DNA from: Gymnopilus junonius
Lineage: Eukaryota > Basidiomycota > Agaricomycetes > Agaricales > Galerinaceae
Direction: 5' to 3'
Length of the DNA: 64,000 nt
Assembly (NCBI GenBank): GCA_015501075.1
Contig: JADNYJ010000004.1
Span: 62,001-126,000 of the forward strand
Made by a program: the position numbers and the translations under genes
Shown here: positions 34,831 through 62,076 of the stretch, piece after piece
Position numbering within the stretch: the stretch's first letter is position 1
Layout: every line of letters starts with the position of its first letter
The notes under the pieces: generated by a model
Seen by the model: only the letters and a program-made list of their open reading frames with translations
What the model was told of the DNA's origin: nothing
Databases searched by the model: none

Positions 34831-34843
34831 ATAGCAGTTGATG

Positions 34844-37139: not shown

Positions 37140-37181
37140 ATTTTATGTATGAACTCGGAGTGTTGCCTGACCAAGGGGGAG

Positions 37182-37399: not shown

Positions 37400-37404
37400 A
37401 TATC

Positions 37405-37480
37405 CAGTGACAATTGTCAAGGCAGCGAGTTGGTCTTGGTGGAACCAGGGCTTGTTTTAAAGCTCAGGAATGGTGATATG
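37405..37480 (+). pseudogene. TET-A, part 3 of 4: catalytic core continuation
   Basis: With one copy of ATATC retained, the frame reads on from ...DKDICIVLVIS into SDNCQGSELVLVEPGLVLKL and RNGDM, the double-stranded beta-helix segment after the HxD motif. TET-B has SDCVGRELVLVEPSVVLRM there. It stops at codon ATG (37478-37480), where the 22.6-kb element begins; the next codons of the gene are at 60104. Confidence 0.85.
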
Positions 37481-37523
37481 TACGGTGTTCGAGAACTGCA
37501 TGGATGAATTTCGACTTTCAATT
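37481..37523 (+). repeat. left TIR of the 22.6-kb element
   Basis: Starts TACGGTGTTCGAGAAC and ends TTTCAATT; pairs with 60055-60097. Confidence 0.9.
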
Positions 37524-37584
37524 TTTGATTGTCCATTGTACACGGGTCAGGCCGACTTTTAAGCTCTGCTCACACACATTATCA

Positions 37585-37860
37585 ATGTCGACGATGGCCT
37601 CTACTTCACCTGTAACACCCTCAGCACAGCGAGTACATGATGGGAATGACAGGAGGGGTGATTGGGAAGGACTATCAGGGTGCATTACAAGCACCTATCG
37701 AAAAACACTTGCTGATTCTCATGGCTATTCCAGATCCTTGGCTGAGAGGACGTTTGCCAACACCATCACTGGCAAGAACGTAACTTCCCTCCTTGTGCAT
37801 ATTGACAAGCTGGAGGTCTGCTGGCACATCCATCACCAACTCCCTCACATGCAAGAGTGA
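37585..37860 (+). CDS. small uncharacterised ORF next to the left TIR
   Basis: ATG at 37585; 91 codons, no stop until TGA 37858-37860. Sequence: MSTMASTSPVTPSAQRVHDG, then GCITSTYRKTLADSHGYSRS, FANTITGKNVTSLLVHIDKL and HHQLPHMQE. It has normal amino-acid composition and retains several Arg codons. No domain is recognised. It sits 62 bases inside the TIR and points inward. It could be a first exon, since the TGA is again of the CGA-derived kind, or a small element-encoded protein. Confidence 0.35.
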   Translation: MSTMASTSPVTPSAQRVHDGNDRRGDWEGLSGCITSTYRKTLADSHGYSRSLAERTFANTITGKNVTSLLVHIDKLEVCWHIHHQLPHMQE

Positions 37861-38600
37861 GATGGAGTCAATCCATGCCCATTGACACAAGTGACAAGGT
37901 ATGTCAAGCATGTGATCACAATATCAACTGCGATATCATGATCACATTGATTTTTTACTTGATCTTATTGCAAATTGTGTAATCTGATACTGTATATTTC
38001 AGATTCCCAGTGTAGATAGTGTCCGCCATATCTTGACATGTATTGTATCCTAGCATGTTCATCACCCTCTCCCTCGCAGGCAATAGTGAGCTGCGAGATG
38101 GAGTTGGTTCACTCATCCCAGTTCCTCACATCACGGTCATGTTTTGCCTGCGCGTACGCACCCTTTCTCACCCCTGGATTTCCTATCCATTGCTTCCGAC
38201 CCATGTCACCACCAGATCTCATCCTTCCTTGCATGCAAAGCAAGTGTCACCACTGTCTGGTGTTTCTCATGTACAAGGTGTCTTGCCCTCATACAGGCCC
38301 TCTCTTGTTACTCACATCATCACTGACAGTCTCAATTTCCTTGCGGACTTTCATTGCAGACTTTCATTGTAGATAAATAGTGGGATTCATTTTTGTAGAG
38401 TAGACTAGCAAAATTTAGTGGCAGTCTGAGTCTGCTAAGGGTTGTTGAGCTAAAGTGTTCTTATGAAGATCATATCTGTGATCATCAACGAAGCTGCATT
38501 ACTGACTGCCCAATGTCAAGGCCTCTGAAGATTCACTAGCATTGAATGGGTGGACGTAAAACAGGTGAAATTCAATCAATTATCAGATGCACATGAATAC
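37861..38600. other. no clear gene
   Basis: Overlapping open frames at 38038-38376 on the plus strand are Ser/Pro/Leu-rich and none is convincing. The region separates the left-end ORF from the integrase gene. Confidence 0.4.
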
Positions 38601-38604
38601 AAGG

Positions 38605-40380
38605 CTAAACTCCCTCCTCTTCTGCCTCCCAGTCATTGTTGTCAATGCAATAATTCACCATGTTACAAAATATCTCCCATCCAAACTTTGCAAGTAAGAT
38701 TGGCGATCCAATTGCAGCATATGTTTTCTCACATAATGCTACTTCCTCATCTGTTCCAAATTGAAGTAAGTCTGGCTGATCGAACTTGAGGAGAAGCTGG
38801 TCAATATCTTTCTCTGGAACTTTAATGAGACAGTCTATCAATTCATGATCTTCGGGGAAGTTATAGATATCAATATGTCGGGTGCTGCTCGGCAAGAGAA
38901 TCTTTTTCTGCTTTCTGATCTTATGGTTCTGATTTTCTTCTACAATCTTGTCAAGATGCTTCTGAATGATCTGCCCCCAAAGCCAAGAAGATATTGCTCT
39001 GTAAAATAGCAAAATGTTTGAGGGAATTATAAGAGATGCCAAATGTGAACTTACACATGGGTTGGATCTCCCTGATGGAATCCAGATGCTATCTTGCCTA
39101 GTTGGTACTCATGAGTGACGTTGGACAATTCCTTCTCCCACAGTGGGTGCCAACTCCTTTCACGAGTAATATTAAATGTGCTTTTGACTGCCTTAAAAGA
39201 TGGAAGGATGTCTTCGGGAACATCTGCATAAAGTGCCCTGAATTCAAAATAAAATCAGTTCATGTTTGTTGGATAAGGGAAGGCTCGAAGACTGACCTCA
39301 TTGATTTGACAAGGGATATAAGTTTTCCGACCTCTGTTCCTTTATCCATCATAGTGGAAAGAGCCATATCTATTGGATGAAAAGGTGAGGCAAAAGTTAA
39401 AACAAGACTTGGAAATTATACATCCTACCTCCTTGTTTCTTGATGAGTTGGAGGTATAGCGCAGGTGGCAGCTCCTGTACACGAGCATTTGGCATTGCCC
39501 AAAGCCCAAGTTCCATATGTGCACACTTGTCTGCTATGCCCCAGACTGCAATGCCCATTGATTTCAGTATCTTTTCATGACCATCTATGCACCATTCCTC
39601 ATTTGGACCAAGGGACCACAGACCATGTGGATGAGCTTTTTTAATATAGGGATTACAACCGTCAGTGGCATCTTTATCTTGGGCAGCCTGATATGCCATG
39701 ATGCCATCCCTGGAGGATAACATTATGTGACTTTCAAATGATTTACTTCCAGTCGAGGTAGTAATGAACTCACTGATGAATATGAATCCCTTGGAGAGCA
39801 AGTTTCTCCTGTACTGTACAACAACCCCATTGTCCAATGGGATCTTCTTCAGTAATGATGTTGATAGCGAGTGCTTGCTCCTCAAGCATGAGACCATTTT
39901 GTCTGACAGTTACAATGTTGAAATCTTTTGAATATTTCTGAACAGTTTGAAGCCTGGCAAATGATGTCATGGGAAGATGAAGATGAAAGAAAACATCATC
40001 TCGAAAGGGAAACTTATGCCACAGTGACTCCATACTCTTTCTCCAGAACCCTGGGCACATTCTTTTGAAGAACCCCATGATCTGAGTACCATTGGAGTAT
40101 TTGAGGGAGCTGGGGAAGTTCTTTGACTGACATAGGCAAGATGTAGGGTCAGGTAATAGGTTTATGCAGAGAGGCATATATATGACATATGCAATGGTGG
40201 TCCTGAACGGTGCTGGTTTCTTCCAGTTGGATTATTGGAGCATTTATGAGTAGTGCATGGCATCCTTGTCGAAGTTGGATGGCAATGATTTTAGGGCTGT
40301 ACAACTCCCATTTTAAAGATGTTGAGACAATGGTCTGTTGTTTCAAGTGATTGTGGTGGGTCTGCACCTGGGTAGCAGTC
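38605..40380 (-). CDS. rve/integrase-like DDE protein, multi-exon
   Basis: On the minus strand: an N-terminal region (MTSFARLQTVQKYSKDFNIV ... QALAINIITEEDPIGQWG, then TVQEKLALQGIHI), next MLSSRDGIMAYQAAQDKDATDG and LWSLGPNEEWCIDGHEKI with the first catalytic Asp. After an intron (39358-39419) comes MALSTMMDKGTEVGKL with the second Asp, and after further introns IISWLWGQIIQKHLDK-like sequence, RKQKKILLPSSTRHIDIYN and the C-terminus EAEEEGV at 38605. The order matches the large fungal family annotated as integrase core domain proteins. It is the gene closest to a TIR and the best candidate mobiliser of the 22.6-kb element (inference). Frames change between 39770 and 39900, as expected of introns or lesions. 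Confidence 0.65.
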
Positions 40381-40911
40381 TCGCAACTGTCATCAAACCC
40401 CTACCCAAAATGCCAAGGCCAAGTACAGACAATGAAGTTTAATGAAGTGTAAGGAATGGGCCATATTGAGAGTGGGTCTTCAGACATTGGTCAAAGCTGT
40501 TACTTAGAATGTTGAATTCATTCATCATCTTTTTTTTGTGTTGTTATTCATTGTCTAAATATTCCCAGATTCTCTGGCCATCCATTTTTGGTCATGAATT
40601 TACCATTCTAAGTAACAACTTTGACCTTCGGAACATCTGAAGACTGCTCTCAACATGGCCCATTCCATACACTTCATTGAACTTCATTGTCTGTACTTAT
40701 TCCTGGCTTTTGATGGTCAATGGAAAATAATGCCAGTTTACTATTTTGGTTATTTTCTGTATCTGGAGGGGAATATTGACTGGGTCCAAAGGCCAGTACT
40801 TTCCCTGATAATGATAAGTGCATTGTCTTGTCCTTTACTCAAAAAATATATAAAAGGTATTAACTCTTCTGTACCTTTTCACCCTGTCCTTTCTTGACTC
40901 TGTCTTCACAA
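40381..40911. other. intergenic; inverted repeat
   Basis: GGAATGGGCCAT (40453-40464) and ATGGCCCATTCC (40654-40665) are complementary and each is extended by matching sequence (TTCATTGAACTTCATTGTCTG and its complement near 40420-40450), making a roughly 270-base hairpin-capable MITE-like structure. No gene. Confidence 0.45.
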
Positions 40912-41655
40912 ATGGCTTGCTCTGGATGCTCTTGACTTTACAAATACTTACCGGAAGGCAAACATTGTGATTCATGTGGACAGCTGGCTGCTAACAACAC
41001 CTCCAAACCTGTGGATGATTGGCCACTCTGTAACCTTTGTGGGAGTGCTTACAAGTTTCTTAAAGGAACAGTTTGTGCACCATGTGAAGCTCGAGAGCGA
41101 GGGGAGGACCTACCTCTACAGTCTTCTAGCCAGGCAAATCTAGCAGCTGAGCTAGCCTCTGATCATTTGGACCCTGTTCGTGAAGCGATCTCCCAGCCTA
41201 CCAATCCTCACACTGCTAGTAGCTACTCGACTCCTGCTGTTAATATTGGCTCAAGTTATGATCCAACCACTGATGTATGTCATTAATTTCCTTGCTGTCA
41301 TCACTTTAAAGCCTCATCTTATTTACATCATACAGCCTCGCCAGCCCCATGCCACTTCAATGCTTGATCACCTTGCTTCCAATTATAGGCAGGTTTATGA
41401 ACATGCTCAAAGCAAGGCTAATGCTTCTGCTCTCAGAATGGCTAAGCCCAAGCCCACTGTCCCCATTGTCAAAAGCGCTTCTGTTTCAAAGCCAATTCCA
41501 AAGGTTCATGTTGCAGTATGTCTTTTTTTATCTTTTGTCCTTTGAGTAGTACTGTAGTACTGTTGACATTATTTTTCAGATCACCCACATTGAGAACACT
41601 AATAATACATCAGGAAAACATGTTTTAGCTCTGCACCTGACTGTGAGTAGACCAG
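40912..41655 (+). pseudogene. Cys-rich (CX2C finger) protein, N-terminal part of a kinase-linked family
   Basis: ATG at 40912; MACSGCS, a TGA at 40933-40935 (Arg expected), LYKYLPEGKHCDSCG, then WPLCNLCGSAYKFLKGTVCAPCEARERGE. This gives four C-X2-C pairs that could form two zinc fingers. Two introns (GTATGT near 41275-41335 and 41517-41579, each ending CAG) separate QPHATSMLDHLASNYRQVYE and ITHIENTNNTSGKHVLALHL. In Agaricomycetes such Cys-rich starts often precede alpha-kinase domains, but none follows here before the oppositely oriented transposase. It may be truncated at about 41655. Probably decayed. Confidence 0.5.
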
Positions 41656-41848
41656 GAAAATCCCATGATCTTTGGTCACATGGAAGCTTATCAGAGCACT
41701 TTCACAGCTCTGTGTTACTCTGAGCTTCTCTGCAATGCAGAACTTTGTAGACATCATGGTAGATCAAATTACAACAAGCATAAGTTATTAGAAGGCCTTC
41801 AGCCAGTGTAGTGTACATTAAAGTTGATCAATAAAGACTGTCTACATT

Positions 41849-44800
41849 CTACCAAATTGTCTGATAACAATATTTACTAACCCAGTTATTAACTAAAAAG
41901 CTCTCTGCTTTGTCAAGAACATTTGTTGAATTCCACTGATTTTGGTCTGCAGCTTCCTTGAATACAGGAAAGAGCATACAACTTTGCCTGATGCTGGTTA
42001 CTGGAAGAACTTCACCTGGTGGGTGCCCACTAGCCTCTGGTTTGGGCTTAGAAATTCTATACATGCCATGCTGGACAGAAGGTTCAGATGGTAAGTGGGT
42101 ATACCACTCAACATATGCAAGTGGAACTTTAGGCCATGCTTCCGGTGCCGGGATTGGTGCTCCAGGTGCAGGTATCAAATCCAGAAGGCGAAAAATGACT
42201 TTCAACTGGCCTATTCTTGTCCCTAAGTGGAAATTAGAGTACTGAAACTCAGAGAAGAACCTTGCCTACACACCTGCAAGTCCATGTGATTCTGCTTCAT
42301 CAGTAGTCATTACAACAACTGTATCAAAATGGCCATTTGGAAGCTTTGCAGACTTTGGCATGGCCCTGACAATATCCTTTTCGCCTTCAATTTCATTGTG
42401 TAAAGCCACCCAGTGAAAGCGAAACATGTTGTAGACATCAAGATGGGTGATTGGCAAAGGTGCAGTCTCCAGAGCACATTGACATAGTGGTGAAGGATCC
42501 AAAAAGGTATTTAAATATTTCTTCAGGTGGAAGGAAAAATGAGGGGCATTATGAAGAGTTTCAATGTGGGTGATAGCTCGCCTAGGGTAGTCAGGGCATT
42601 TAGCAATTGCCTGAAGAGGTTGGGATAAGCTGGGTATCTGAGAGCCTGTAGACTAGGGCTTTGTGGTTCGTAGCTGGATAACCATATTAAAAAACGTGAT
42701 CTTCTCCTGCCGACAGAGCCAATGAATCATTTGCGGAAATTCATCCCATTGATTGGTGGCCCTCCAACCATGCTTAGCAAAGTCAATGTGAAGATGTTCA
42801 AACATTTCAGTGTTGTAGTTGTCAGTTGTTCTGAAGAGCTCAATGCTTTCAATGTAGTGGGAAAGAGAATGTAACTTGGGAAGATTCAGATGTTCTTGGC
42901 ATTTGACATCGACAAAGTAGCTTTTGTTATCATGGAATTCCTTGAGAGCAGTTCTTAAATAGCCCAGAGTTTCGTTGTTGTGAGTTGGATACTGCGCAAG
43001 GTATATGAAATCAAGCAGTGCCTTCATGGCCTTGATCCCAGGAGTAGCCATAACACTGACCAAGCAACCTAGAAGTATCTTTGCCATATTCTTTCATTCT
43101 GATCCTGAGATCTGTGAGAGATTGGAAATGCCATTCTTGAAATGTCAGAGCCCATTGCCAAAAGAAAGAGATCGAATTCTTTGGTCTAGTTTCTTTTCAC
43201 CCACGACACTTTGGCACCAACTGACCAGGTGTTTGAAGATGCCTTGATACAGCTGGTGAAGAATGTCTGGCATGATTGCTTTATGGATGTCAGCAAATGG
43301 AAGATCCTGCCAAAATGGGGTAAAGACTCTGCCTGCAACATCATTGGCCATGCACTCCTTGTGGAACACCTGAGGAGACCCTTGAGCTTGGGCCTTTGCA
43401 TCATTGATGATCTGCTGAGTCCATGTTTTAGTCCTAGGAGGCAATACGGCAGGATCCTGAAGTTCCTTGGCTGGACAATGGCACTTGGGGCAAGTGCTGT
43501 ACTTAGTACAGGCAACGAGACATTGTTCAGGGTAGTCCACCACGTAGCATGCAAGGATTGGAAAGACCAGCCTCACTGCTCCATCACTGCAAGTCATTCG
43601 GATGCCTTCCTTTCCTGCCTTCTTCAGAGGGTGAAGCACAATGCTCATTGCTTCATGGAATATATGCTGGACCTTTGAGCGGTGTTCTGCCTCAGTCATC
43701 TCTGATCAATTGAGTTTGTCGACAGAGAGATAAGTGATTAAGATGCACGCATGTTGACTGGGCCTCCTCCGTGTCACTTTTGGCAGATTTCCAATTGTCA
43801 GATACACTGGATATGCTGATTTTCCACCAGAGAACTGGGTGAGCTGCATCTTGTCTGTTGCTATAATGATAGGAGCAATGGTGGCACCCTTGGGCAGGAG
43901 GTTCTAAGTAGGCATCAAGAAAATGAGTGACCAAGCAATTCATCACCAAAGTGATTGATCACCTGAACTGCATGCCACCATTTACCTGTCCACATCTCAG
44001 AGAATATTCTGGACTTCCTCCCTTCATCAGTGAAGACTTTCTTTGGACAATAGACTCTCTCCTTCTCAAATGCGGGGTTGGCAAAAAGACTCTTGACAGC
44101 CTCAACAGGATCTCTGAAACGTATAGTGTACACTTCCTCTGGTCAGTCTCGGAATGAGAGGTGTCATGTTTGCCAATCTCCAGCTCATTCAGGGATTGAA
44201 TCAACTTTCTGATGTAAAGTGCGAACATTGTTGTATGATAATCCAAGCTTTTCTTTGACCTGAACAAAGTGAGAAATATTCTTTCAACAATAATAAAGAC
44301 AGCATACTCCAGGAATAGCGAGCAAGCGATTTACAGCATTATGGCCGGGTCCATCCTTCACAGCCCATTCTGCAAATCTCCAGTCCAGCTCTGAGTTGAA
44401 AGGATGATGCTCAGATAAAGGATCTTGCATTATAGTGTCACCCTCTGGATCTGTTGTTATGAATTGCTGGTCTGCATGCCCAAAGATCTGACCAGCACCA
44501 GGATAAGGAGCTTCCTCTCTAGTATCCTCATCATCGTCCAGAGACCTGTGCATGTTAGGATGGGATCTGTTGGGTTGTGAAGGTCCTGCCTGTGGCTCAT
44601 TGGGTAAGAGAATAAACTCATCTTGATCGATATCCTCTGATGGCAGGACATCAACATTTCCCTCTTCCAAGTTGGGCCAGTCTGACAAATCCCAGTCAAA
44701 TGAAGAAGCGGCCTCTTCAGCAAGTTGTTGCTGCAGTATAGCTTGATCTAGATTATACGGGGATGGCATTGGATCTGGCAATGGCTGTATGTCGTCCAGG

Positions 44801-44952
44801 CCAAAGGCTTTGATTTTGCCCTTTCTATACCACTCACAAGATTTGGCAGAGGAGAGATGTGCATTGAGTCCTTGGAAGGTCTTGAAGATCTTGGAGCAAG
44901 CAGGGCAGCCAGGGAAGTCATTGTCTGGGAAATGTGGCATAATGTCCAGCAA
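41849..44952 (-). pseudogene. Plavaka-type transposase, near-complete
   Basis: On the minus strand: a C2H2-like N-terminal finger (CPACSKIFKTFQGLNAH), acidic linker, WRFAEWAVKDGPGHNAV, RFRDPVEAVKSLFANP, SEMWTGKWWHAVQV, and the segment read as IIIATDKMQLTQFSGGKSAYP. Then come MTCSDGAVRLVFPILACYV, DYPEQCLVACTKYSTCPKCH, PFADIHKAIMPDILHQLYQG, ALLDFIYLAQYPTHNNETL, FRTTDNYNTEMFEHLHIDFA, and a C-terminus with LAYVEWYTHLPSEPSVQHGM. This series is the Plavaka family, EnSpm/CACTA-related DNA transposases of mushrooms. Several introns; one TGA (minus 43708-43706) at a likely Arg. It is the better-preserved transposase in the element and an alternative mobiliser, or a nested passenger whose own ends I could not find. 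Confidence 0.8.
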
Positions 44953-45600
44953 TCCAAACTATAGCAGCAATAGAGAGAGCAGGTAGTGGTTATCACAATA
45001 AAGATCAATGTTATTGACAACAAGTTATATATATAGACAGTCTATAAATGACATCCTTTAGTCTCATACATGCAATGAAAGCCAGATTACTCACAAATAG
45101 TGACATTCAGAGTGAGCATTGTTGGAAATGAATGTGTAATAGTAATGAGTGACAGCAAAGTGAGTGAACCATGGATAGCAGAATAGATAGCAGGAAAATG
45201 AGCAATGGGGTATATATAAGTAGGAAAGCGATAAGTAACTTCAGTGCTTGGTTGTCTGACAGTGGTGATGCTTGACATGCTTCTATACAACTAGTGGTTG
45301 ACCATTTTTCTGGTAGACTGAGGTACCTATTCATAAGCTCACAATACTTTGGTAAGCATTAAGAAGATGACTGCTCACTTTTGCCTTTAAGCAGTAACCA
45401 CAACCGTTGAATAGCCATCCGGTAGGCAATCCAGCCAGTATAAGCTACTGTTGTCTCAACTATAAGAGGTCCAAAATGGAGTTAATAGTAAACACAAGAT
45501 CAGAGAGACTGCCATGCTCACCCTCCTCTGTCTCCCAGTCTAGCAGGACCACTGTAGGAGTCTCCGAAGTTCCAGAGTCCATCAACCACCGACTACTGGG
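44953..45600. other. no clear gene
   Basis: Intergenic sequence upstream of the transposase. Short Ser/Leu-rich frames on the minus strand are not convincing. Confidence 0.4.
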
Positions 45601-45614
45601 GATTTGACTCTTGC

Positions 45615-46335
45615 TCATGCTTTTCTTGGTAATACTGGAGGATTATCTGGTCGATTTCTGGAGAGGAAAGAGCTCGATAAACAATATAATGTCCCAGAGA
45701 CAGAAGAAAGAAGACGAGGCCCTGCAGCAAAAGGGGGGACACAGAGAGCATGAGGTAATAAAGAAAGCTTTGAAGTTGCTATTTTAGTCATGATCTTGGA
45801 CGATCTTTCCTCAGTCACCCATGAACTTATTATCTCTCCAATTAAAATAAAATTAATAGAGTACTACATCTATGTATCTAACATGAATTGTTTTTCTTGG
45901 AGCTGACCCTCCTAATTCTGTGCTTTAACCTGAGAGCCATTCTTTGCAAGACCTTTTGTCTCTCCACCTCAGCTTTTGCCTGCCTTTTCAATGAGATGTG
46001 CCTTGCCTTTGCCTTTGCCTTTGCCGCCTTCACTGCCTTCAGCTTCTGCAGCAGCCTTATCTTCAGAAGGTTGATTGCTGGAGGTCCATGAATCGGACTA
46101 AGCAGGGGAGGAGTCTGGACAGCTGGAGGAGTGATAGGGACTGGGATGGGACTGGGCAGTCTGGATGATGAATCAGAAATGATTATGACATGGTGATCTA
46201 GTAGTACAGCTCAGACATATTTCAGATTCATGTAAAGAACCAGTTGTGCACCTTGCATCTCTTCATGGTTACTCTCGACATTGACTAGTACCTCGTCATC
46301 AGAGCCATAGTAGATAGAAGATGAGTAGATTATAT
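45615..46335 (-). pseudogene. uncharacterised gene with basic coiled-coil
   Basis: The minus frame reads SIYYGSDDEVLVNVESNHEE, a TGA where Arg fits, HHVIIISDSSSRLPSPIPVP, a Pro-rich linker, then LLKIRLLQKLKAVKAAKAKA and HISLKRQAKAEVERQKVLQR, a highly basic helical segment ending at 45888. A downstream frame (45818-45615, TEERSSKIMTKIATSKLSLL) may be the next exon. No family recognised; a nucleic-acid-binding or nuclear protein would fit the charge. An upstream exon near 46400-46450 is possible. Confidence 0.4.
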
Positions 46336-46691
46336 GTGGGTGTGGGCGAAAGTTTGGGATGGGCTAAAAGGACAGAATGAGCATAGCTGGGTTTGTGGGC
46401 ATACCAGAGACTTACTTTATACCCTGGATAGGTGTCTCTATTCCGGGATCATAGGTATTCTTGAGAATTGGGGTAGTGCCACCTCTGTGGTGACATCAAT
46501 CCCCACTCATCTTCATGAGAGACAGCAGAGCAGCGAGAAACAGCAGAGTAGGGACTGGAGCATCTGGCAGACATACAGAGCTGACATCTTTGAAGAATGT
46601 GACTGGTCAGAATTGGAGGGAGAATGTAGGCAGAGGCGCAAGTTGCTGGACTAGTGATGTCAGTCAAGATATTCAACAAGAGATTTCTTGT

Positions 46692-46795
46692 GGGAAAGTA
46701 GAAACAGAAATGCTGCTTTACCTTTCCACTTTCCCAGATGGAAAGAATCAACAAACAAGACGCGAGACATGTCGAAAGTGAGAGGATGTCACGTG
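46692..46795. promoter_or_regulatory. palindrome + CACGTG module C
   Basis: GGGAAAGTAGAAA (46692-46704) pairs with TTTCCACTTTCCC (46724-46736) with one mismatch. CCCAGA and ATCAACAAACAAGACGCGA follow, then CACGTG at 46790-46795. Same order as modules A and B. Confidence 0.5.
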
Positions 46796-46986
46796 GATGT
46801 TAAATGATCATGTATTATCAAAAACTCGAAAAACAAGTCAATCAGTGAGAATGTGAGGTAAAAGAAGGCAGAGATGCCAGCTTTCAGCCATTGGAGGAGG
46901 ACAAGCAAAGCAAACATGATGGCGGAATGTGATTTTGGGCCATGAAGGATGGGAGAAGAACAAGTGCAGCAAAGGTAAAAGATGAA

Positions 46987-47888
46987 TCAGGACATGCGAA
47001 GAGATACATGATGAATTATGCAGCAAGGTCCACCAACCAGCTTGCTGGTGAGCCAGAAGAAGCGGGTGAGGTGGTGTTGGAAGGCAGCATAAACGCACAT
47101 GCTGTTGACATCTCCACCCATGCTCTTCACTTGGCGGAGGATGGCAGTGACATTCAAGGCCTCGTCCAGAGCAGGAACCATTATGTTCATGAGAGTCACC
47201 ATGTCAATGGGCTTCAAGTGCTCATCCAGAGTGAGAGCCATGGCAAGAACCAGACCCATGGCAGCGAGCATCCAACTCACGCCTGTGGCGAGAACCCGAG
47301 CCATGGTGGTGAGCTTCCAAACCATGCCCATTGTGAGAATTGTGGTGAGAGCCTGAGCCATGATGACAGGCATCTAATTCACATCTGCGATGGGAACCAG
47401 AGCCATGGTGGCGAGCCTCCAATTCACGCCTATTGTGGGAATTGTGGTGGGAGCCTGAACCATGGTGGTGAGCATCAAGCTCACGTCTGTGATGAGAGCC
47501 TGAACCATGATGGCGAGCCTCCAAATCACACCCATTGTGAGAGTTGTGGTGAGAACCTGAACTGTGGTGATGAGCTTCCAACTCACAGCCACTGCAAGAA
47601 GCATGACGGGAACCTGAGCCATGCCTATGAGCTTCAAGGGCACATCCACTGCGAGAGCCATGGTGGAAGCCTGATCCATGATGGCAGGCCTCGAACTTCG
47701 GAAGAGGATCTCTGCCATGAATGATGTCATGAGCAGCCACCTCAGCACTGGAATAGTGGTCTAAAAATCAACCATGTCAGCATGAACAACAGAGCTGGTT
47801 ACAGGTGCACAAGACCACTTACGGGGAGAGCATGAGTTGACAAGATGGCAGTGAGGATGAAGGCAATGAAGCTCTTGTGGAATTGCAT
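46987..47888 (-). pseudogene. putative secreted His/Gly/Ser-rich tandem-repeat protein
   Basis: Minus ATG at 47888 starts MQFHKSFIAFILTAILSTHA, a good signal peptide. A 62-base intron follows (47822 down to 47761, GTAAGT ... TTTTTAG). Exon 2 contains HYSSAEVAAHDIIHGRDPLP and then alternating 19- and 15-residue repeats such as LEAHHHSSGSHHNSHNG and ELDAHHHGSGSHH down to about 47222, with a degenerate tail beyond a TGA. The splice as read puts the signal peptide one base out of frame with the His-rich repeat, so a lesion or another splice is needed; the alternative frame is Met/Val/Leu-rich. Secreted small repeat proteins are common in mushrooms; an effector-like role is speculative. Confidence 0.4.
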
Positions 47889-47987
47889 TTTGATTGGAGT
47901 TTGTTCAAGTAATAGCTGTTTAAGGGCAAGCTGGAGCTGAAGTAGGACTTTGAGACTGAGGAAGGATTGGGAGATGACCACTTGAAT

Positions 47988-49528: not shown

Positions 49529-49656
49529 GGGAAAGTGCAAACTCAAAGGTCGATTTGAGTTTGCACTTTCCCAGAGGCAGGTATCAACAATGAGGGTGAG
49601 GATCAACAAGCAGACGCGACTTGGATGTGTCCAGAGTTTGCATGATGTTGCACGTG
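49529..49656 (+). promoter_or_regulatory. palindrome + CACGTG module B, upstream of TET-B
   Basis: A perfect 19-bp inverted repeat: left arm 49529-49547, 6-base loop GGTCGA, right arm 49554-49572 (ends TTTGCACTTTCCC). CCCAGAG, ATCAACAATGAGGG and GATCAACAAGCAGACGCGA follow, then CACGTG at 49651-49656, about 80 bases before the TET-B ATG. Confidence 0.6.
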
Positions 49657-49737
49657 ACTGTTGCATCCTGCAAGTTCGGACTTCGACATTGACCATGTCA
49701 TGTCCTCATGCCCTCCGGACCTCCCACTCTTCTGTCG

Positions 49738-52700
49738 ATGTCAAACATAGTCCTCTCCCTGTCTGAGCTTGCCCGTATTGTTGCTGCCCTCTCCAGTGCT
49801 CCTGGAGAGGATGTCGTTGATGAATTTGAATGAGCAGCAATTGCTCTGAAACTGCAGGGTGCCCTTAACTCTGCTTGGTCAACCTCTGGCCCTTGGGGAA
49901 TTCCTTCAGCAACACTCTCATTTCCTGCTGCCAGTCCTCACCTTCCACCGGCTTCCTTGCAGGTATGTGATCTTTGCGGCATCTCTTTTAAAACAAGGTT
50001 TGACAGTGTGATTGCAATAGACAAGGGGTTCAAATCCCAGCATGGCAATGCCTTTTTCGGCCAACTTGAGGTCATCAGGCTTTGACTTCAGGCCTAATAA
50101 TACTTTCAGGTTATCTATTGACTTCAGATGTGCAAAATCCAGTTCCAGCCATTCCTATCACCCAGTCGCCTTTCCAGACCTCTCGAGCTCCTCCTTTCCT
50201 GTAGGATCTGGGACACCTGGACCTCTTCCCACTCTGCAAGATGCTGGATCACCCTTACCTTGCATATGTCCTCATCTTTTGACAAGCGTATGAGTTGCTA
50301 ATCCCTATATCATTATTCAGAGTTCCATCGTACAGCCTGGGCAATGCGGTGTATATTCCTTCAATATGGTCACCAATGATCCTTGAATTGCATTGCAAAC
50401 CTACCCACCCCATCTCTTGATGTCATCTTCTTCGAATATGGGTGATCCGACTCCTTGTGTCAACCCTCGAGACCTCACATTGCCAATGCAACCTCTCCAG
50501 CGAATCGACTGTCAGCCTTCCAGCCATGGATTCTTGGCATTTGATGAGGATCAGGAAGAGAACGAGGACATGGAGGAGGTCATCATTCCTCCAGCACCTC
50601 AACTCCATGCTCCAGATCCATCTGCAGCTGGACCTGCCCATGCATCCTTTGATATAGATTGGGATAGCAATGAGCATCATGATGACCCCATGGGCAACAA
50701 TGACCTTGGTGACAGTGAGGACGACAATGGTGACAATGGAGACAACGATGGTGGGGGGGCCGATCGCCAATGCCATGGAAGTACTGAAAGTTTGTTCAGA
50801 TGGCTGGGGTATGATCCTCCAGCTGGTGGAAATGGGGGTCCTGGCCCTGGAGGTGGAGGAGGAGGAGGAGGCAGAGGAGGTGGAGGAGGAGGTGGAGGTG
50901 GTGGTGGTGGTGGTGGTGGATGGGGTGTGGCAGTCCCCAACTATTGTCCTCGAGCAGGCGCAAACACTATTCACGAGCCCAACTGCCCTCACAGAACTGC
51001 CAATGCTCTAATTCAAAATGACGCCCCAAGAGACAAAACTCTAGATGTGTTTCTTGCCAGTGACAAACCTGAATCTGGACCAGGAGATGGACTACAGCGC
51101 ACCAGGCCAAGAGGACCACCCACATATTTGAATGCGAGTGCTATGCCCATTGCAGAAGACCCTCCTCCTGACATGACTGTTTGTCAGTTTTTCATTGCAT
51201 TGGACTCCCTCGGGGACATCTGCCTACATCCTAGCCCGGGAAAGAAGCTGAAGGGGAAGGGGAAGGGGAAAGAGAAGGAAGTGACATTCATTGGCCAGCC
51301 GGAGCAACTATTATGACTCATTTTTGGGAAGTCCTCAGTTGAAGAGCTGTCGGCATTTTTCAATGGTGTCAGCAATGCACCTTCAGCCAATGATATTCTA
51401 GGGAGGATCAGCCATTTTGCAGATGCATGTTATGCAGCAGAGCAGGCTGAAGCTCTTCTTCAGCTTGTTTATTTTTTAAATGCAATAAAACTTGCCTGCC
51501 TGATACAGCAGTATGTTCAACTTCCACTTCGATTCATGGCACCAATCTAATGTATTATTGTAGGTTTCTGAATGCTCACCATGGATACTTAATCAGTAAC
51601 ATTTGGAATGACCTTGAACCCTGAACAAAACTGCCTTGATGGAAGTTAAGGATCTACCTTTTTCATGGGCTGGTAGCCATCAGAATGGCTGGTGCCAGTC
51701 CGTCTCTATCCTTTCTTGTGAATATCTAAGGCTGACTAGAAAATGGGGTCTATGTACCTTCTTGTAATGATTGCATGCATGAAACTCAAGACAAAGTTGC
51801 TCAGTATTGATGCAGCAACTATTGGAGTGATTGCCCATTTCATTCGCTTTCCTAGCAGTAAGTCCATTGCTACAATTGTCAATCTGTCCACCAGCTGACT
51901 CCATTTAAAGAGTCCCCTCTCGGAATGCTGATAAGGAAGAATGTCATTCCTGCCATTGCCATGCTTCAACAGAAGTATCCCCTTCGCATGACCTGCTTCT
52001 TTCCGACAGAATTCCTGCAGTCCTTCTATGTCACCCAGGATGTCAATTGCACAAACCTGGTTATGATGGACACTATATTCGATAGCTTCAAGCTATTCAA
52101 GTAAGTAGGCCTTAAATCTCTCCATGTGTGTTGGGTTTATTTGCTTGAACAGTGACTTCATCAAGGCCAGGGACTGGGATGCTTGGGTGGAATGTCAGCT
52201 GCAAGTTGAACTTCCAGGAGGTCCATCTCTTGATCTGCTGAATACTGGCCTTTTTATGCCTGTTGACTTTTCAGCTGCAATCAAAGCTGCCAGAGAAGCT
52301 GGTCCTTGTGGTCGCTGTATGCTCTCAGACAACAACAACTACCTCCCTACTCCTCCTAGAGATGCCTCACCTGCTACTCCATCTAGGCCCACTGCACCTG
52401 CTACCCCCATGATGATGGCCACTCCCATGGCCACTCCTCAAGCCCAGCAGCCTATTGGTCACCCACAGAGCAGCAGTCATGTTCTTGCTGGTGAAGAAGA
52501 GGATGACATATCAGAATCTGATGATGAGGTGACTCCTCTGGACTGGAACTCAAGTATGGATGATGAACTGCTATACATGTTCAAAGTCAACTTCAAGCCT
52601 CAGCTTGACTACAACACTAGGGTTTTTTATCTGACTGACTATGAAGGAAGGTTTGAAGAAACAGAGCGCCAAAGGGGGTTTGCTGCAAAAGCAAATTACC

Positions 52701-53841
52701 CAGAGACTCTTGAAGAGTTTGAGAAGTGGGTACATTATCATTTCCCTGTTATCTAAATTGGACTAAAACTGACCACCACACTCATATAGTATCGAAAGCA
52801 ACTTACCAGTGGAAAGCGACCCAATTGTCAGACTTTTCTGGGTCTTGACTACAGAATTATAGAAGGGTATGTTCTTGCTTTTCCAATTCCCAATGACATC
52901 TCTGTCTGACTAAAGGGTGTTCAGGTGAATGTTGCATATCAACGATGCCAATGGCAACCTCCTTCTAATGTTTTGGGATCATATGAAGGATTATATGAGG
53001 GATACATTGCTGCATAAGATGGAATACATCCTCTCTGGCCAAGTCAAATATGTGACACTGAATCTGAAGGCATCAACAACATATTTGGTGCTCTTCATGC
53101 CTCATGGTACCCGAGATTCACCAAGAATGTGAGTTTAAAACCCAGATTGTTCATCCTCCAGTCAGCTTAATGATTGTTTGTCTTTAGGGGTACAGAGCTC
53201 CTTCTACTGCAGATCCTTCTACACTACAGAGGGATGGCGAAGACCTGTCAACACAAGCCTGAATGTCCCCAGGCTTAGCAAGGAAATCAAGGATAATCAA
53301 GAGGTCTATCAAATGCTGTTGGACGCTTTGTGTCCAGTCTTTGAGTGGATCTACACAACTGTAAGCTAATTGCCAATGACTTCGCAAGCCAATGCTGATG
53401 TCTTCAATATAGTTAAAACACCTTTTCCCAGACACATTTCTCTCCCTGTCCATCAGTGTGCAGTTCCTTCCAAACAGCACAATGTCCCCCATGTACCCAT
53501 TCGCTGGTTTCATTCTCAACATTAATGTCTCTACCTGCATGCACAGAGACACTGGGGACAAAGACATCTGCCTGGTACTTGTCATCTCTGACTGCGTAGG
53601 CAGAGAGCTGGTCTTGGTCGAACCCAGTGTTGTTTTGAGAATGAGGAGTGGGGATGTGGTGGTCTTTCCCTCCAAAGCTTTTACCCACCTGAACCTTCAC
53701 TTCAAAGGGAAGCACATTTCTTTGGTGCTTCATACTGACAAATGCATGAAAGGTTGGGAAAAAAATGGAAATGGATGGCTTGACAATGCAACATTTCGAT
53801 TTGTCATGGATGATGATGACCATTACAGTGGCCATAGGTAG
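49738..53841 (+). pseudogene. TET-B: TET/JBP-family 2OG-Fe(II) dioxygenase-like gene, cargo of the 22.6-kb element
   Basis: Exon 1 starts MSNIVLSLSELARIVAALSS. The large exon 50393-51545 is acidic, then poly-Gly (about 50840-50920), then AFFNGVSNAPSANDIL. Later exons: LQQKYPLRMTCFFPTEFLQS, DFIKARDWDAWVECQLQVEL, YLPTPPRDASP, LYMFKVNFKPQLDYNTRVFY, NVPRLSKEIKDNQEVYQMLL. The catalytic exon (53460-53841) has PFAGFILNINVSTCMHRDTG with HRD at 53542-53550, ELVLVEPSVVLRMRSGDVVV, THLNLHF with the distal His at 53686-53688, and ISLVLHTDKC. TET/JBP enzymes oxidise 5-methylpyrimidines in DNA. TGA at 49831, 51314, 51622 and 51637, and His (CAC, 53713-53715) where TET-A keeps Arg, suggest inactivation by CpG decay. 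Exon borders are approximate. Confidence 0.75.
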
Positions 53842-54056
53842 ATGTCCTACTCTGTCAAAGGTCTGGTTTCTTATCTTCCCTTCCATATCACATTCTGTAC
53901 CTTTTCAAATATATCATTACACTGTATTTTTGTTCATGATGTCTATTGTCATGTGGCACATATATTCTCCTGAGAATGAAAATGCCCTCATAATTCTTGT
54001 CAACCACTTCCATCTCTCATTGGCTTGCTCTGCCACAAGGGTCTGCATTGCCTCTC

Positions 54057-56221
54057 ATGCCTACAATTACTAGAAAAGCAGCTGCTGCTGAGTCTGCTGG
54101 TGTAAATGCTCCGGAGAATGAAATGGCCATGCCTGCAAAATGGAAGGCCACCAGCTCGAGCAATGCCAAGCATACTGCTGGCAAAGGTGGTGTTTTCTTG
54201 TTTCATCAAGCAGTAGACTGCTGATAACTTGAGTGATTACCTTTCTAGCAAGCAAGCCCCTGTCGGCAAGTCAGACCGCAGCCCCAAAGTCAAAGAAGAA
54301 AGGAGGCTCTGTGTCTGTGTCAGAAGAGGATTACCAAGCATTTTTGAAGTACCAACAGGGCCAGGGCCAGAGCAATAGTCCTGCTCAGCAGAAGATCGCA
54401 GAAAAGGAAAGAAAAGCTCAGGAAAACCTTGGTATGCTTTTATCTTCAAATTATATTCTAATGATGCATTTTTCCCTTCTATATAGCTATTCAGGAATGT
54501 AACAGGGCTATGAGAGACAAAGAAGACCTCTCTGATGATGACACTGAGGACAACACTCCCCCTACTAAGAAGTCTAAGCCATCACACACTGTCTTGAGTG
54601 ATGATGAGGCAGAGCTTTCCAAAGAACTGGGCAGTACTACGACAGTACCTGGTCTTCCAGATTTTACTAACATGACTGAAGAGGATGTAGAAGATGAAGA
54701 TGAACCACAGGGAGGTGCTCAGAAAGGCGAAGACAATTCCGACGAGGAGGAAGAAGTCAAAGTTGAGGAGCAAGGTGGTCAAGGATCTCCCAGTGAATCT
54801 CAGGCTAGTACAGCTGGAGGTAACCTGGTAGATAATGGGGTATTGTATCCTTTGCTTTGCGACTCACAATCAACTGACACCCTTTGTTTTTAGATGGAAG
54901 TCTCAACACCCATGTTGGAAAAGGCATATCAAAAGCCAAGTTCCAAGAATTCAAGTGCGCCAAAGCTTGAACATGCCTCAGTATCCCCTGCATTGTCTTC
55001 TACCAAAACCAAAGTGTCATCCACATCCACCGCATCCACCGCAAAGAAGGCAGTTCCTCCAAAGAGTTCTGGAGGTACGAAAGTTGTACGCGAGCAGTTC
55101 TCAAGCCCCGAAGTCCTTGCCCTTGCCAATGCAGCCAAAAGTCATCTCCGTATGCAGATATGCTTTGGAAACTGGAAGCCCAACTCCAATCCTGAAAAGC
55201 CTGACTGGATCTGGACCATAATTGCTGAGATGCCTTCTGCTCTTGGTGTCAGCTCACGCCCAAGGGCCACAGAGGGACTGAAGCAACTTCTCAATGACAA
55301 TGCAGAAAAGGAGAAAGTCATGACTTATGTATGTGTTGTTCATTCTATCTGGTCATCTCATTTAGTTGTCTCTTTAGGTTGGTTATGGGAAGACCGTTCT
55401 CTTCAACACAATTGTCACTAAGGCCTGTAACAAGGTTGCAGGGTATCTGAGCCTTCATGGATCTGTGCAAGACGTAACAGACAAAGTTACTTGGTTACTA
55501 CAAGCATCTAATTTTCTATATAGAGACCTAAATGTCAAGGTATGTTTTTCTTCAAGCCTCTCTTTCATTGCTAATGCCTTGACCCAGGAGAGGACATTCA
55601 ACAGTAGTAAGCCTTTTGGAAACCCATTCATCAAGGACCTTATCCAGACCGTCTGGTTCAACACTTCCAAGAATGGTTCCAAGGCAGAAGCAATGACCAC
55701 CAAGAAGATGATTCAGAACAAAGAAGTTCCATTGACAATTATTCTTCTGGTAGTCACTGTGGTAGTATCAATTATTTTTTTTCTGAGCATTGTTCTTATC
55801 TATTTTATAGATCGAACACAGCATAGGGGAGTATCACCCAGGAACTTTATCTGTTACACAATTCCATGAAAGTTCTGTATGGAATAGGTGCAAGGTCTTG
55901 CTCTTTTGAAGATGATTTACAGCTAATGGATTGCTTTAGGTTTATGCACCATTCGAGTACGTGGAGGGGCCTGGTCCAGAAGTCAAAGAAATGGTCTGAT
56001 GCATACCCAGCGGCAGTGTACAAGTTGATTATGTGAGAAATAGTTCAGTCTGTTCATTTTTCATTGCTGACTTTTTTCTTTTCTTTCAATGCAGTCTCAC
56101 TTGTGGTGACTTGAGCTATCTGCTGATGGAAGAAGAGGAAGTGAATGAAGAAGAGATCAAGGATGTCAAACCAGAGGACCTTGACAGCATTGCTGATAAC
56201 AGAATGGCTGAGGTGTTCTAA
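54057..56221 (+). pseudogene. DUF6532-like gene B, following TET-B
   Basis: Starts MPTITRKAAAAESAG. The N-terminal half is disordered and charged (KSKKKGGSVSVSEEDYQAFL, DEDEPQGGAQKGEDNSDEEE). The C-terminal half, after frame changes near 54960-55380, reads NKVAGYLSLHGSVQDVTDKV, TWLLQASNFLYRDLNVK, SSKPFGNPFIKDLIQTVWF, KAEAMTTKKMIQNKEVPLTI and FEYVEGPGPEVKEMV, ending LDSIADNRMAEVF and TAA. The W-L-L-x-x-(A/S)-x-F-x-Y-G/R-D pattern and the following F...I...I...WF block resemble DUF6532, a basidiomycete family of unknown function. Several introns. Its start is 216 bases after TET-B, the same arrangement as cassette A. TGA codons near 54966 and 55200 suggest CpG decay. Confidence 0.6.
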
Positions 56222-56404
56222 CAACGCCAATGACACTTTGCTTTTAGTCACATATTAGATGGGTGCTACTTTATCTCTTTCCATGTCTTTCATTGTCTCC
56301 TGGGCTTCTCGTTCCTTCACTTGTTCATAGAGTGCGCTACATACATTCCTTCCTAATTGCAATGAAAATATAGTCCATTTGCCTCCCACATGTTGTCCTT
56401 GTCC

Positions 56405-56540
56405 TAGAGAGTGTCAGAGCCTGTCAGAGCAACAGAGAGCAACATTTTCCCAATCTGTCAAAGAATTTTGAGGGATCTCCAGACTGTCAGAGAGCTTGTA
56501 GAAGCATCTCAGAGCACCTCAGAGAAGTTGGCCTCAGGAC
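56405..56540. repeat. CAGAGC/AGAGCA-rich repeat after DUF6532-B
   Basis: Imperfect short repeats (GTCAGAGC, AACAGAGAGCA, TCTCAGAGCACCTCAGAG). A similar tract lies after the DUF6532-A gene (61800-62050). Confidence 0.5.
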
Positions 56541-56580
56541 CCATGGTCAAGACTTTGCTCTGCAGCTGCCTGGCACCCTT

Positions 56581-58594
56581 TTGAGCTCTAGCAGCTCTGA
56601 GGTTCTCTTGCTTTCTCTGCTGTTCTTGTCACAACTCTTGTCTATTCTGAGAGACAAGACCCTTTTTCCTGATGTAAGAAGCTCAAAACTGTCTTTAATA
56701 TTCAAATGGTCTCTTATCCTGACAACACTTCTTGGACGGAAATTGCAGAGAGTCTACAAATTTGGCTTGATGGAATTTACATCAAGCAGTTCAGTCACAG
56801 AATTCAGTCAGAGTAAGTCTACAGTTCATAGTACTGTGCAGTCGCTTCCATGATATTGATTTCAACAGGGATGACTTTACTCTTACCTTTGCTGAGTCAA
56901 AGGCAACTCTTAGTAGCTCTGGCTTCTCTCCATTAAATGGCACAGTTGGGAATTTATGGAAAGCCAGTACTGAGATCAGTGGCTTACATGTCTCTGCAAA
57001 GAATATCAAGGTTCGCAAGTTGGACTTGATGGCTTTTGTCAACTTTCCACAAAAGCCAAAGGAAAGCGATTATGAAGATGAAGACCAAGATGTGCATATA
57101 CTGGTTATTTATTCAAAATAATCCTTTTCTGACTTGCTTACATGTGAACTTAAGCTGTACTATTCAACTCGCTACTCGACTCACTCTGGAAAGATGAAAC
57201 AAAAAGCTATTGAAGAGGTACCAAGTGATGATGAAAATATACCTTCTAGGAAACGTGAGTAATGTTTGATTTGAATCACCCAGGACTCATAGTTTATCTG
57301 TGTTTAGGTCGTGCTGATGGTGCAGCCTCGGGTGCTGGCTGCTATTTTACTAATCTTACAGGGAATGCAACTTTTATCAGCAATGCTGATTGATATGTTG
57401 TAAAGAAGCTTACAGTACAATTTCGAAATGGGGCTCAGTTTCCAGAGTGGGTAGAAGCTGAAGAACGATTTACTATCTGGGTTCATCAGAAGAAATTCAC
57501 TAGTGGACAAATGAAAGAGGCATTCAAAGTAAGAGTGCTTCTTTTAGGTGTTGGCTGTCATTGACTAATACTGGGAATACTAGATGCAATTTGATGGTTC
57601 CTTCTATGCTGCCAAGGCTTTCTACACCTTGGGAGATTTCTTAGGTACTCCTTCACCATCGGAAAACTTGGACTATTTGAAAGAAGAAATTCTGCATCTC
57701 AAGATGATTGGACATGCTTTGGATGAATTCAATAAACAAGCTAAGAAGGAAAAAATTTCTGTTTACCATATGACTCAAGTCCTCTCATTTCCCTTTCATT
57801 ACTCTTGACTTTACTTTCTAATGTAGCTATGCAAGTGGCCTCCTCATTCCTGCTTAAGGTCATTGATGGCCCCAAAGCAGGCTTTGCCTGGCTGGTAGAT
57901 TCTTTCCTGGATCACGAGAAGATGCATAAATTTTCAGGTTCTGACATTGCAGGTCACAACCATGACTTTGCTGGCCAGACTTGCAATGCCTTTGCACATT
58001 GGGTCTTGGAGGACTCAGGTTCTGAATTTGTTCCTTCTGATACCCAAGGTCTGTGGTTCAACCTTTGATATCTTTCATATTGCCAATCCCTGAAATCTCT
58101 TTCAGGAATTGTGCACACTGTCCTGTTGAAGCAAAATATTGCTGGGCCTGAAAGCCTTACCCTGTTCAACTTGATGAGCCACAGGTAAATTCACTTTCTG
58201 ATTTTTTTTTGTTCCTAAGGTCTATGCTACAGCAAGGATAAAATGATGGGGCTTGGAGACAATGGTATAATGGGTATCAAGCAGTTCTGCAAGCAACATC
58301 AGTGCAATACGATCTGTAAAAAGTTTGGCCTTGGAACGATGAAGGCACTCTCACAAGCACTAGAAGGTCAAAGCCTTGACTATTTTCACCAGATTTAATT
58401 GAGCTGACATGCAATAATTAATAGATGACAATGGCATTGAGAACTCCAAGCTGAATATTGACAATCCAAATAATTGCTCTCGAGAGGAGGGTGGTAATGA
58501 TGATGATAAAGTCAATGATAACATTGATGAGCAGGAGGTTGTCGATAAGGAGCCTGAGGCAGAGGGCTACAAAATGAGCCTAAGGTCTGAGTAA
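56581..58594 (+). pseudogene. alpha-type protein kinase-like gene
   Basis: Exons in order: FQMVSYPDNTSWTEIAESLQ and GIYIKQFSHRIQSE before a donor GTAAGT; FTLTFAESKATLSSSG and LDLMAFVNFPQKPKE; ADGAASGAGCYFTNLTGNA; YVVKKLTVQFRNGAQFPEWV; MQFDGSFYAAKAFYTLGDFL; LLKVIDGPKAGFAWLVDSFL; FAGQTCNAFAHWVLEDSG; VHTVLLKQNIAGPESLTLF; and GLGDNGIMGIKQFCKQHQCN with TICKKFGL. The last G-x-x-G-I-x-x-F-x-x-x-H-x-C-N-x-x-C is the C-terminal signature of alpha-kinases (MHCK/EF2K type). VVKKL carries the likely ATP-binding Lys. The acidic tail ends at TAA 58592-58594. Stops near 57119 and 57393 (TGA) indicate decay. It completes a TET-DUF6532-kinase series on one strand. Confidence 0.65.
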
Positions 58595-60054
58595 TAGAGT
58601 TATTTATCACAGTATTAATTTTTGTACAAATTTACAATCTTGAAGGCCAACTCAGTAATTTTTGGATTGAAATTGTAGCAGATACCCAATTGGTGCTCGA
58701 TGGAACAAAACATCAATAAAAGTGTGGCAGGGGCTGGTGACTGCAATGCTTTTGCCACAAGATCATGTGTGGCAAATGAGTCGCAGTCACTGGGTAGGTA
58801 ATTTAGTGCCAGTTACTTACCAATATCACATCACCCTGGGTAGAACGGCCTTTAATATAAATTCTAAGTACTCAATTACAGGCTACAGCAAATTCCTGAC
58901 ACACCCAAGAATGTGCAGAAAGACCTCATATTGACCACTACAATGTACAATCTTTTGGTATTTCAGTTATATTCCATACTGTTCATTCATTCAAAGCAGA
59001 AAAACAATACTATTCACTATAGACTATTGGAGGGCAATTCACCAGCATAAAAGCCATAGACCAGCAGTCAGGTGGGTCCATGATGAAGAGGAGACAATGG
59101 AAAGCAGGGGGGTCAAAACTGCTCCTGCTTGCATGTGCATCCGACCAAGGCAACAAACGGGCAGTGGCTTCATAAGATGAAACCAGCTTGCTTGCTGGTG
59201 TATGAAGGACCCAGGGGAAGCAGAGGCAGTGGCACCAGGAGGCACCTCCATCGTGGTTAGCATACAAGGGAGGCTAGGAGGAGGTGGGATCATGATGGCA
59301 TAGGACAGCAGGAAGGAGCCTTTGGCAGAGGCAATGGTGGGGAGATAGATCAAGTATGATAACCTTCATCTGGCACTTACATGCGAGGGGAGGGCTGTTG
59401 GGGTTAGGTGGGCGCTGAAGGTGGAACGATGTGGAGGCAAAGCAGTGGTGGCAGCACCACAGGTCATCTCACACTTGCATACAAGGAGGGTGGTCAGCAA
59501 ACGTGTGTTTGGAGACAACTGTCACACCTTATGGAGGTGCAGGCCATCATCATCATCCAGAAGATGAGCCATACACCTCCAGCTTGCTTTTCCTGGCAAG
59601 GGAGGTGAGGTTGGGTGTGGTGGCAGCCAGCAGGGCCCATAAAGGCTGCCTCCAGCACAGGTGAGCAAGCTGGGAGGGTGGTGGGAAGAGGGAGAAGCCA
59701 TCTCCATCTCATTCTTGCAGATGAGGGAGGTGGCGCAGCAGCGATGAGTACCAACAGACCTCTGACTCGCTCTTCCTGGTGAGGGAGGCAGTGGTGGCAT
59801 TAAAACATGCCAACATCTACAAAAACAAGGTCAATATCATCATCAAAACAAAAAAGTCAGAGAGAACGTGGTCAGGAATTGGGTCATGGAACATACAGCA
59901 GAATAGACAGGAGAAAAGACATGAGTTCGGCTGCATGCGTCTGCTGCTTGAGGATGGTATGCCAGCTGGGACACGTCACAGAGGGGGATGGTTGTGGTTG
60001 AAGAATGTGCTGGCAGAAGTTGCCAATATATGGGCCCAACAATCAATATTCAAC
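58595..60054. other. no clear gene; right sub-terminal region
   Basis: 58600-58990 is AT-rich. 59000-59800 is GGAGG/GCAGC-rich with overlapping low-complexity frames on both strands, including imperfect direct repeats (CCTGGYRAGGGAGGYRG-like at 59597 and 59779). I see no protein family. It separates the kinase gene from the right TIR. Confidence 0.4.
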
Positions 60055-60097
60055 AATTGAAAGTCAAAATTTATCCATGCGGTTCTCGAACACCATA
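60055..60097 (-). repeat. right TIR of the 22.6-kb element
   Basis: Ends GGTTCTCGAACACCATA; inverted match to 37481-37523 (39 of 43 positions). Confidence 0.9.
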
Positions 60098-62060: not shown

Positions 62061-62076
62061 AGTGTTTTTCCTGATG

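Follow-up and report, generated by a model that had tools for sequence, protein, structure and literature searches.

IS3EU transposons have TA..TA termini and usually duplicate 6 bp of their target, as set out in the portions of PMC10045372 used here. In the rust families their ends read TAYGG..CCRTA with terminal inverted repeats (TIRs) of >30 bp, and in families that carry a TET gene it lies between the transposase and an alpha-kinase, these two facing opposite ways (PMC12730594, in part). TET-bearing IS3EU elements are reported in the same portions of both papers from rusts and Tuber indicum (PMC12730594, PMC10045372). For PlavakaB transposons, the sections of PMC12730594 consulted give CATCA..TGATG termini, class the TETs of Plavaka as PE type, in which HxE replaces HxD, and propose that TET acts as an anti-silencing enzyme; TET genes are said there to pass between transposon superfamilies, in a transfer that is called passive and for which those sections name no vehicle (Kojima 2025, PMC12730594). 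Here, a window of 64,000 nucleotides from the agaric Gymnopilus junonius (contig JADNYJ010000004.1, positions 62,001 to 126,000) was analysed, in which a preliminary description had placed a 22.6-kb cargo-carrying DNA element at 37481-60097. We conclude with high confidence that this locus is nested: a TET-bearing PlavakaB transposon lies inside an IS3EU-type element, which lies inside the TET gene of an older Plavaka that is also broken by a copia-type element. For each of the two insertions, the junctions, the target duplication and a naturally uninserted relative were observed. The TIRs and the 6-bp duplication of the earlier reading stand, and its single element becomes two transposons, with 15,067 of the 22,617 bases belonging to the nested PlavakaB.

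Ends and uninserted site of the outer element

The outer element occupies 37481-60097 (22,617 bp), with inverted ends and GATATG on each side. The features of its ends and target are as follows.

27532-29069, +, target: opening segment of the TET gene in the outer (older) Plavaka (P0019)
29070-37399, +, copia-type long terminal repeat (LTR) element within the outer TET gene; ATATC duplication at 29065-29069 and 37400-37404 (compared with C44)
37405-37480, +, middle segment of the outer TET gene, flanked by the copia and IS3EU-type elements (compared with C44)
37475-37480, 6-bp duplication at the left end, GATATG (present once in C44, the uninserted paralogue)
37481-37523, +, left TIR, TACGG.., 39/43 to the right end
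60055-60097, -, right TIR, ..CCATA, 39/43 to the left end
60098-60103, 6-bp duplication at the right end, GATATG (present once in C44, the uninserted paralogue)
60098-60301, +, last part of the outer TET gene (compared with C44)
60824-62076, +, remainder of the outer Plavaka: DUF6532 at 60824-61123, right end TTTTTCCTGATG at 62076

Direct reading of the ends (TACGGTGTTCGAGAAC.. from 37481 and, inverted, TATGGTGTTCGAGAAC.. from 60097) agreed with the 39 of 43 identical bases and the flanking GATATG first noted for this element; counting from the outermost base, 50/64 are identical, and a repeat search returned 64-nt inverted arms of 84% identity, target duplication bases included. Six order-1 simulated windows served as the null for this pair (some 550,000 pairs, spaced 2-40 kb and flanked by an exact 6-bp duplication), and their best 43-base inverted pairs reached 25-27 matches, compared with 39/43 for the outer TIRs. 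One pair in the real window scores higher (40/43, at 3376/11028) and is read as inverted gypsy copies; the outer TIRs are therefore not the single best pair of the window.

The insertion itself is seen most directly on contig C44. A DNA query of 60098-62300, for which the best 40 of 45 candidates were scored, gave matches of 97% there. When the copia element, the outer element and one copy of each duplication were removed from the window, 415 of 436 bases were identical to C44 without a gap. This paralogue, about 95% identical, holds one ATATC and one GATATG and is thus a natural uninserted sequence that shows the insertion of the outer element directly. The in-frame restoration of the host gene first noted for this element also holds: removal of the element with one GATATG leaves an open frame. 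An accidental spacing of a pair of miniature inverted-repeat transposable elements (MITEs) is ruled out by the same uninserted site. The interrupted gene of the preliminary description is real, but it is itself a transposon gene: the order of TET, then DUF6532, then a Plavaka-type right end at 62076 is the reason the target is taken for an older Plavaka. The outer DUF6532 (60824-61123) is 59% identical to the inner one. For the left end of this older Plavaka, no exact CATCAGGAAAA was found within 40 kb left of the window, where three places match with one mismatch.

The genome assembly (58.0 Mb, 898 contigs) was searched with 120 bases of the left end, giving three matches: the end itself, the right end (E 4.4e-11) and a lone end on C295. 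The paired TIRs that had been anticipated at another locus were thus not found in this genome. In the 9 kb read around the lone IS3EU-type end (C295:3585-3622, 38 bp, 97%) no partner was found, nor any match to the transposase, kinase, TET or Plavaka at E 1e-3. Rfam at gathering thresholds gave no match anywhere in the window.

Assignment of the outer element to the IS3EU type

Three gene segments belong to the outer element, which measures 7.5 kb without its insert.

38608-40133, -, IS3EU-type transposase P0001, 408 aa, spliced, the leftmost gene (deposited Gymnopilus junonius protein; protein alignment)
40939-41607, +, portion of the IS3EU Cys-rich/alpha-kinase gene that precedes the nested Plavaka, comprising the Cys-rich part and what follows it; the last two bases are the TA duplication (compared with the C91 relative)
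56677-58591, +, alpha-kinase, right part of the split IS3EU gene (P0016; PF02816, E 2.5e-22)

Relatives of P0001 were collected at E <=0.001, giving 15 proteins among 2507 candidates, and 14 were aligned after the weak P0015 was left out. P0006, from C91 of the same genome, is 62% identical to P0001 and twelve others are 44-53% identical, with D141, D201 and E243 invariant across the 14 aligned proteins. At E <=0.05 the Pfam integrase core rva_4 was matched by 12/14 and HTH_21 by 3/14; the NCBIfam IS3 transposase model was matched by 4/14 (best E 7.6e-7) and its IS481 model by 1/14. A PDB search with the transposase alignment returned chance-level rows only.

These results agree with the published features of IS3EU. 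The ends read TACGG at 37481 and CCATA at 60097, GATATG occurs twice in the window and once in C44, and the 39/43 TIRs exceed 30 bp, like those of the rust families. The invariant D, D and E and the matches to the IS3 model (4/14, P0001 not among them) are those of a DDE transposase of IS3 kin, and the alpha-kinase (PF02816) lies on the + strand opposite the transposase on the - strand. The ends, the length of the duplication, the relatives of the transposase and the gene order therefore assign the outer element, at the level of sequence, to a known class as IS3EU-type, and the statement that no known class fits has to be withdrawn.

C57, C246, C277 and C379 carry rva_4-type integrases of another, distant family, whose open frames are longer. 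These were tried as relatives (38-39% identity by one search, 24-34% by another) and set aside, as no kinase or TET match was found within the 10 kb read at each. No TAYGG..CCRTA pair of good identity was found near them; two C379 end pairs with matching 6-mers agree at 9/30 and 11/30 only. The integrases of C57, C246 and C277 have an identical match score, and that of C379 lies near TACGGG-type repeats.

A PlavakaB transposon within the IS3EU-type element

Between the Cys-rich and the kinase parts of the IS3EU gene, and separating them, lies the nested transposon with the following features.

41608-56674, -, nested PlavakaB, 15,067 bp; ends CATCAGGAAA..TTTCCTGATG; TA duplication at 41606-41607 and 56675-56676 (uninserted relative on C91)
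42266-44958, -, Plavaka transposase region, predicted; Plavaka domain at 43145-43705 (E 4.2e-56), DUF6830, zinc-finger-like start
46933-47724, +, His-rich repeat-bearing open frame inside the Plavaka
51779-53838, +, TET/JBP-like gene P0017 of the nested Plavaka, with an HRD motif and a Tet_JBP score of 23.2 bits, under the 34.9 cut-off
54894-55761, +, DUF6532 gene of the nested Plavaka

The transposase domain (PF18759, E 4.2e-56), the CATCA..TGATG termini at 41608 and 56674, and, in the window copy, a TA duplication within the 2-3 bp expected for PlavakaB place this insert in that group. All the genes named in the preliminary description are present, but the TET-DUF6532 pair and the alpha-kinase belong to different transposons. 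With the Plavaka and one TA removed, the joined window flanks translate as ITHIENTNN-KKLKTVFNIQMVSYPDN, and at the corresponding place the IS3EU relative of C91, without an insert, has ITQIENINN-KKLRTPFRINMTFYPES; across the site the proteins are ITHIENTNN-KKLKTVF (window) and ITQIENINN-KKLRTPF (C91), and the DNA is equal at 43 of 64 positions without a gap. The TA duplication is required, because both the frame of the joined flanks and the ungapped comparison with C91 need it. The C91 relative is laid out as in the window, with the transposase in one direction and the Cys-rich and kinase parts in the other; the Cys-rich and kinase matches are 370 bp apart on C91 and 360 bp apart in the window after 15,069 bp are subtracted. 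Its right end resembles the outer TIR, and its left end was not found. The kinase of the outer element was found in this genome at the window, on C91 and C68, and at one weak place on C24.

Copies of the Plavaka were searched for with 40240-60103 as query, and the best 26 of 118 candidates were scored, so the counts that follow are lower bounds. The matches on other contigs are confined to 41604-56679. The left block (41604-47082) is 93-95% identical on C135, C221, C2 and C476, the right block (49227-56676) is 91-92% identical on these four and C755, and 47570-56674 is 96% identical on C128; further pieces lie on at least C3, C252, C541 and others. The matching blocks stop at the CATCA..TGATG ends, and no match to the IS3EU parts (40240-41603 and 56680-60103) was found at these copies. 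The C2 copy has an altered left end. C755 groups with C135 and C221, with the right flank in common, the left not, and no duplication. On C3 (139138-140075), 805 bp of Plavaka left end joins an inverted right-end-like stretch (74%), and left-end homology resumes about 3 kb further on in this rearranged Plavaka.

The TET of the nested Plavaka

The H and D of the HRD motif of P0017, the DNA-demethylase-like TET, are invariant in five aligned relatives, and the HxE of the PE type is therefore not what this TET has. A family search of the whole genome found 20 Tet_JBP stretches. Of these, 11 exceed the Pfam cut-off and 9 fall below it; the 9 include stretches that belong with the nested TET (C755, C2 and C128) and one that belongs with the outer TET (C44). 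The TET copy of the window itself is absent from this list of 20. Two grades of Tet_JBP thus coexist within one genome, with Plavaka copies in the lower grade. A canonical TET stretch on C92 matches CcTET at 3.7e-19, whereas neither the nested TET frame nor a five-sequence TET profile matched any PDB chain, and a PDB search with the TET relative P0021 gave chance-level rows only. Because the C92 TET of the same genome matches CcTET and the nested TET matches no chain, the latter is taken, on the sequence comparison, as not AG-like, that is, not a close relative of CcTET. The nested TET thus appears to fit neither the PE type, by motif, nor the AG type, by PDB comparison; the PU type lay outside the comparison.

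Order of events and alternative explanations

The nested structure suggests the following history. A copia element entered the TET gene of an old TET-bearing Plavaka around the site. An IS3EU-type transposon of 7.5 kb, whose transposase gene lies close to its left end and whose Cys-rich/alpha-kinase gene runs the opposite way, inserted into that gene too, with duplication of GATATG. The 15,067-bp TET-bearing PlavakaB entered the Cys-rich/alpha-kinase gene, duplicating TA and splitting the gene, either before or after the IS3EU-type element arrived at this site. Each element was presumably moved by its own DDE transposase; judging from its family and the duplication, that of the IS3EU-type element would recognise the TIRs and make cuts staggered by 6 bp on insertion, and the Plavaka TET, after the published proposal, may oxidise methylated bases and loosen silencing. 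In principle the IS3EU-type element could carry the Plavaka as a passenger.

A single transposon of 22.6 kb that belongs to a new class, is mobilised by the integrase and has long carried the Plavaka, TET and DUF6532 genes as cargo would account for the outer TIRs, the GATATG and the uninserted site, which enclose all of these genes. The Plavaka part, however, is bounded by ends and a TA duplication of its own, occurs in the scored copies described above with no IS3EU part beside it, and is missing from the IS3EU relative on C91; with these copies and the C91 read-through, a single element is rejected as the origin and we give it next to no probability. A different matter is whether, given a nested origin, the IS3EU-type element and the Plavaka reached this TET gene jointly. 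C44 lacks both elements, which fits joint or stepwise arrival, and the IS3EU-type element still has its pair of TIRs and a transposase gene whose exons are open, but the composite has no second copy in the assembly and 22.6 kb far exceeds the 7.5 kb of the element without its insert; joint arrival is therefore considered to have a small chance. That the outer element is instead a relative of IS3EU (IS481EU, Ginger or a degraded Polinton) seems quite improbable. Retroviral-type integrase cores occur in all these classes, the published tree, in the part of PMC10045372 at hand, does not separate IS481EU from IS3EU, and one of the 14 transposase relatives also matches the IS481 model; yet it is IS3EU for which TA..TA termini, a 6-bp duplication and an alpha-kinase partner are described, and the integrase was the sole Polinton gene recognised in the Pfam-scanned frames (10, 10 and 8 proteins), among which no dedicated search for PolB was made.

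Several observations weigh against the nested IS3EU and PlavakaB interpretation that we prefer. On the IS3EU side, no second paired copy of the outer TIRs was found in the 58.0-Mb assembly, and the class was set from published descriptions of IS3EU. P0001 itself scores 22.1 bits for rva_4, under the cut-off of 26, and matches neither the NCBIfam IS3 nor the IS481 model; its deposited model lacks the NPxGxNQH start found in relatives, which makes its integrity uncertain. The kinase frame as read contains one in-frame stop, spliced around in the deposited model P0016. With gene models this imperfect, the transposase and the alpha-kinase are both putative in function. On the Plavaka side, the middle is 74-89% identical on several contigs, and the other copies have about 3.5 and 1.2 kb extra relative to the window copy and miss about 0.9 kb of it. 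At the four other copies read at both ends (C135, C221, C476 and C2) no 2-bp duplication was found. C135 and C221 share the right flank (359/359 bases) and not the left, and C2 and C476 share the left flank (97.4% over 455) and not the right; such copies may reflect recombination between copies, rearrangement or assembly chimeras.

Surroundings

The window reads as a dense nest of retroelements. The LTR stretches of the copia element at 29070-37399 are 95.9% identical over 218 bases, and a third copy of its LTR (62139-62356, 83%), with many copies in the genome, lies just right of the outer Plavaka end. Ty3/gypsy-like frames were recognised at 3083-5125 (-), 9348-10097 (+) and 20223-25079 (+), two of the three mutually inverted; the gypsy and copia labels come from reading of the frames, without a family scan.

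Comparison with known systems

The large size of the locus recalls Maverick/Polinton elements and Starships, and in Polintons an integrase of this type and 6-bp duplications also occur; no other hallmark gene, such as those for protein-primed PolB or capsid, turned up in the scanned frames, where no dedicated search was made, and the size is unlike theirs in that it arises from nesting. With IS3EU/GingerRoot, the outer element shares the TACGG..CCATA ends, TIRs of >30 bp, the 6-bp duplication, a DDE integrase-type transposase and an opposite alpha-kinase. As in the TET-bearing IS3EU families, the window TET lies between the IS3EU transposase and the alpha-kinase, but the host here is an agaric, unlike the rusts and Tuber of the published portions, and the TET is not a simple IS3EU gene but arrived inside an entire nested Plavaka, by which the kinase gene is split.

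The nested transposon resembles the TET-bearing PlavakaB of Agaricus bisporus and Gymnopus confluens, as given in part in PMC12730594, in its Plavaka domain, CATCA..TGATG ends, 2-bp duplication and internal TET. It differs in species and in a TET with HxD where those of PE type have HxE (PMC12730594, same portions), and it also carries DUF6532 and His-rich frames, on which no statement was found for the published TET-bearing PlavakaB families in the sections consulted. With CcTET and the AG-type TETs (Kyakuja, Zisupton), the nested TET shares a Tet_JBP-type 2OGFeDO domain with HxD; it is set apart from them in that the nested TET and the five-sequence profile match no PDB chain, whereas the C92 TET does.

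The observation is real and well resolved, and the locus is made of known kinds; new are the site and a TET unlike the type reported for Plavaka. Since mushroom TET neighbourhoods can mix several nested transposons, claims of cargo need both ends of each element. More tentatively, and with a modest chance of being right, the locus may have caught a change of TET carrier midway, with a TET-bearing Plavaka between an IS3EU transposase and its alpha-kinase, and with its TET forming an additional type, HxD-bearing but unlike CcTET, for which the portions of PMC12730594 consulted give no Plavaka example. If so, loss of the Plavaka ends would leave a TET-bearing IS3EU element of the published layout. 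The nested state in this agaric places TET where the TET-bearing IS3EU families carry theirs, and makes nested insertion a route of TET transfer that can be tested.

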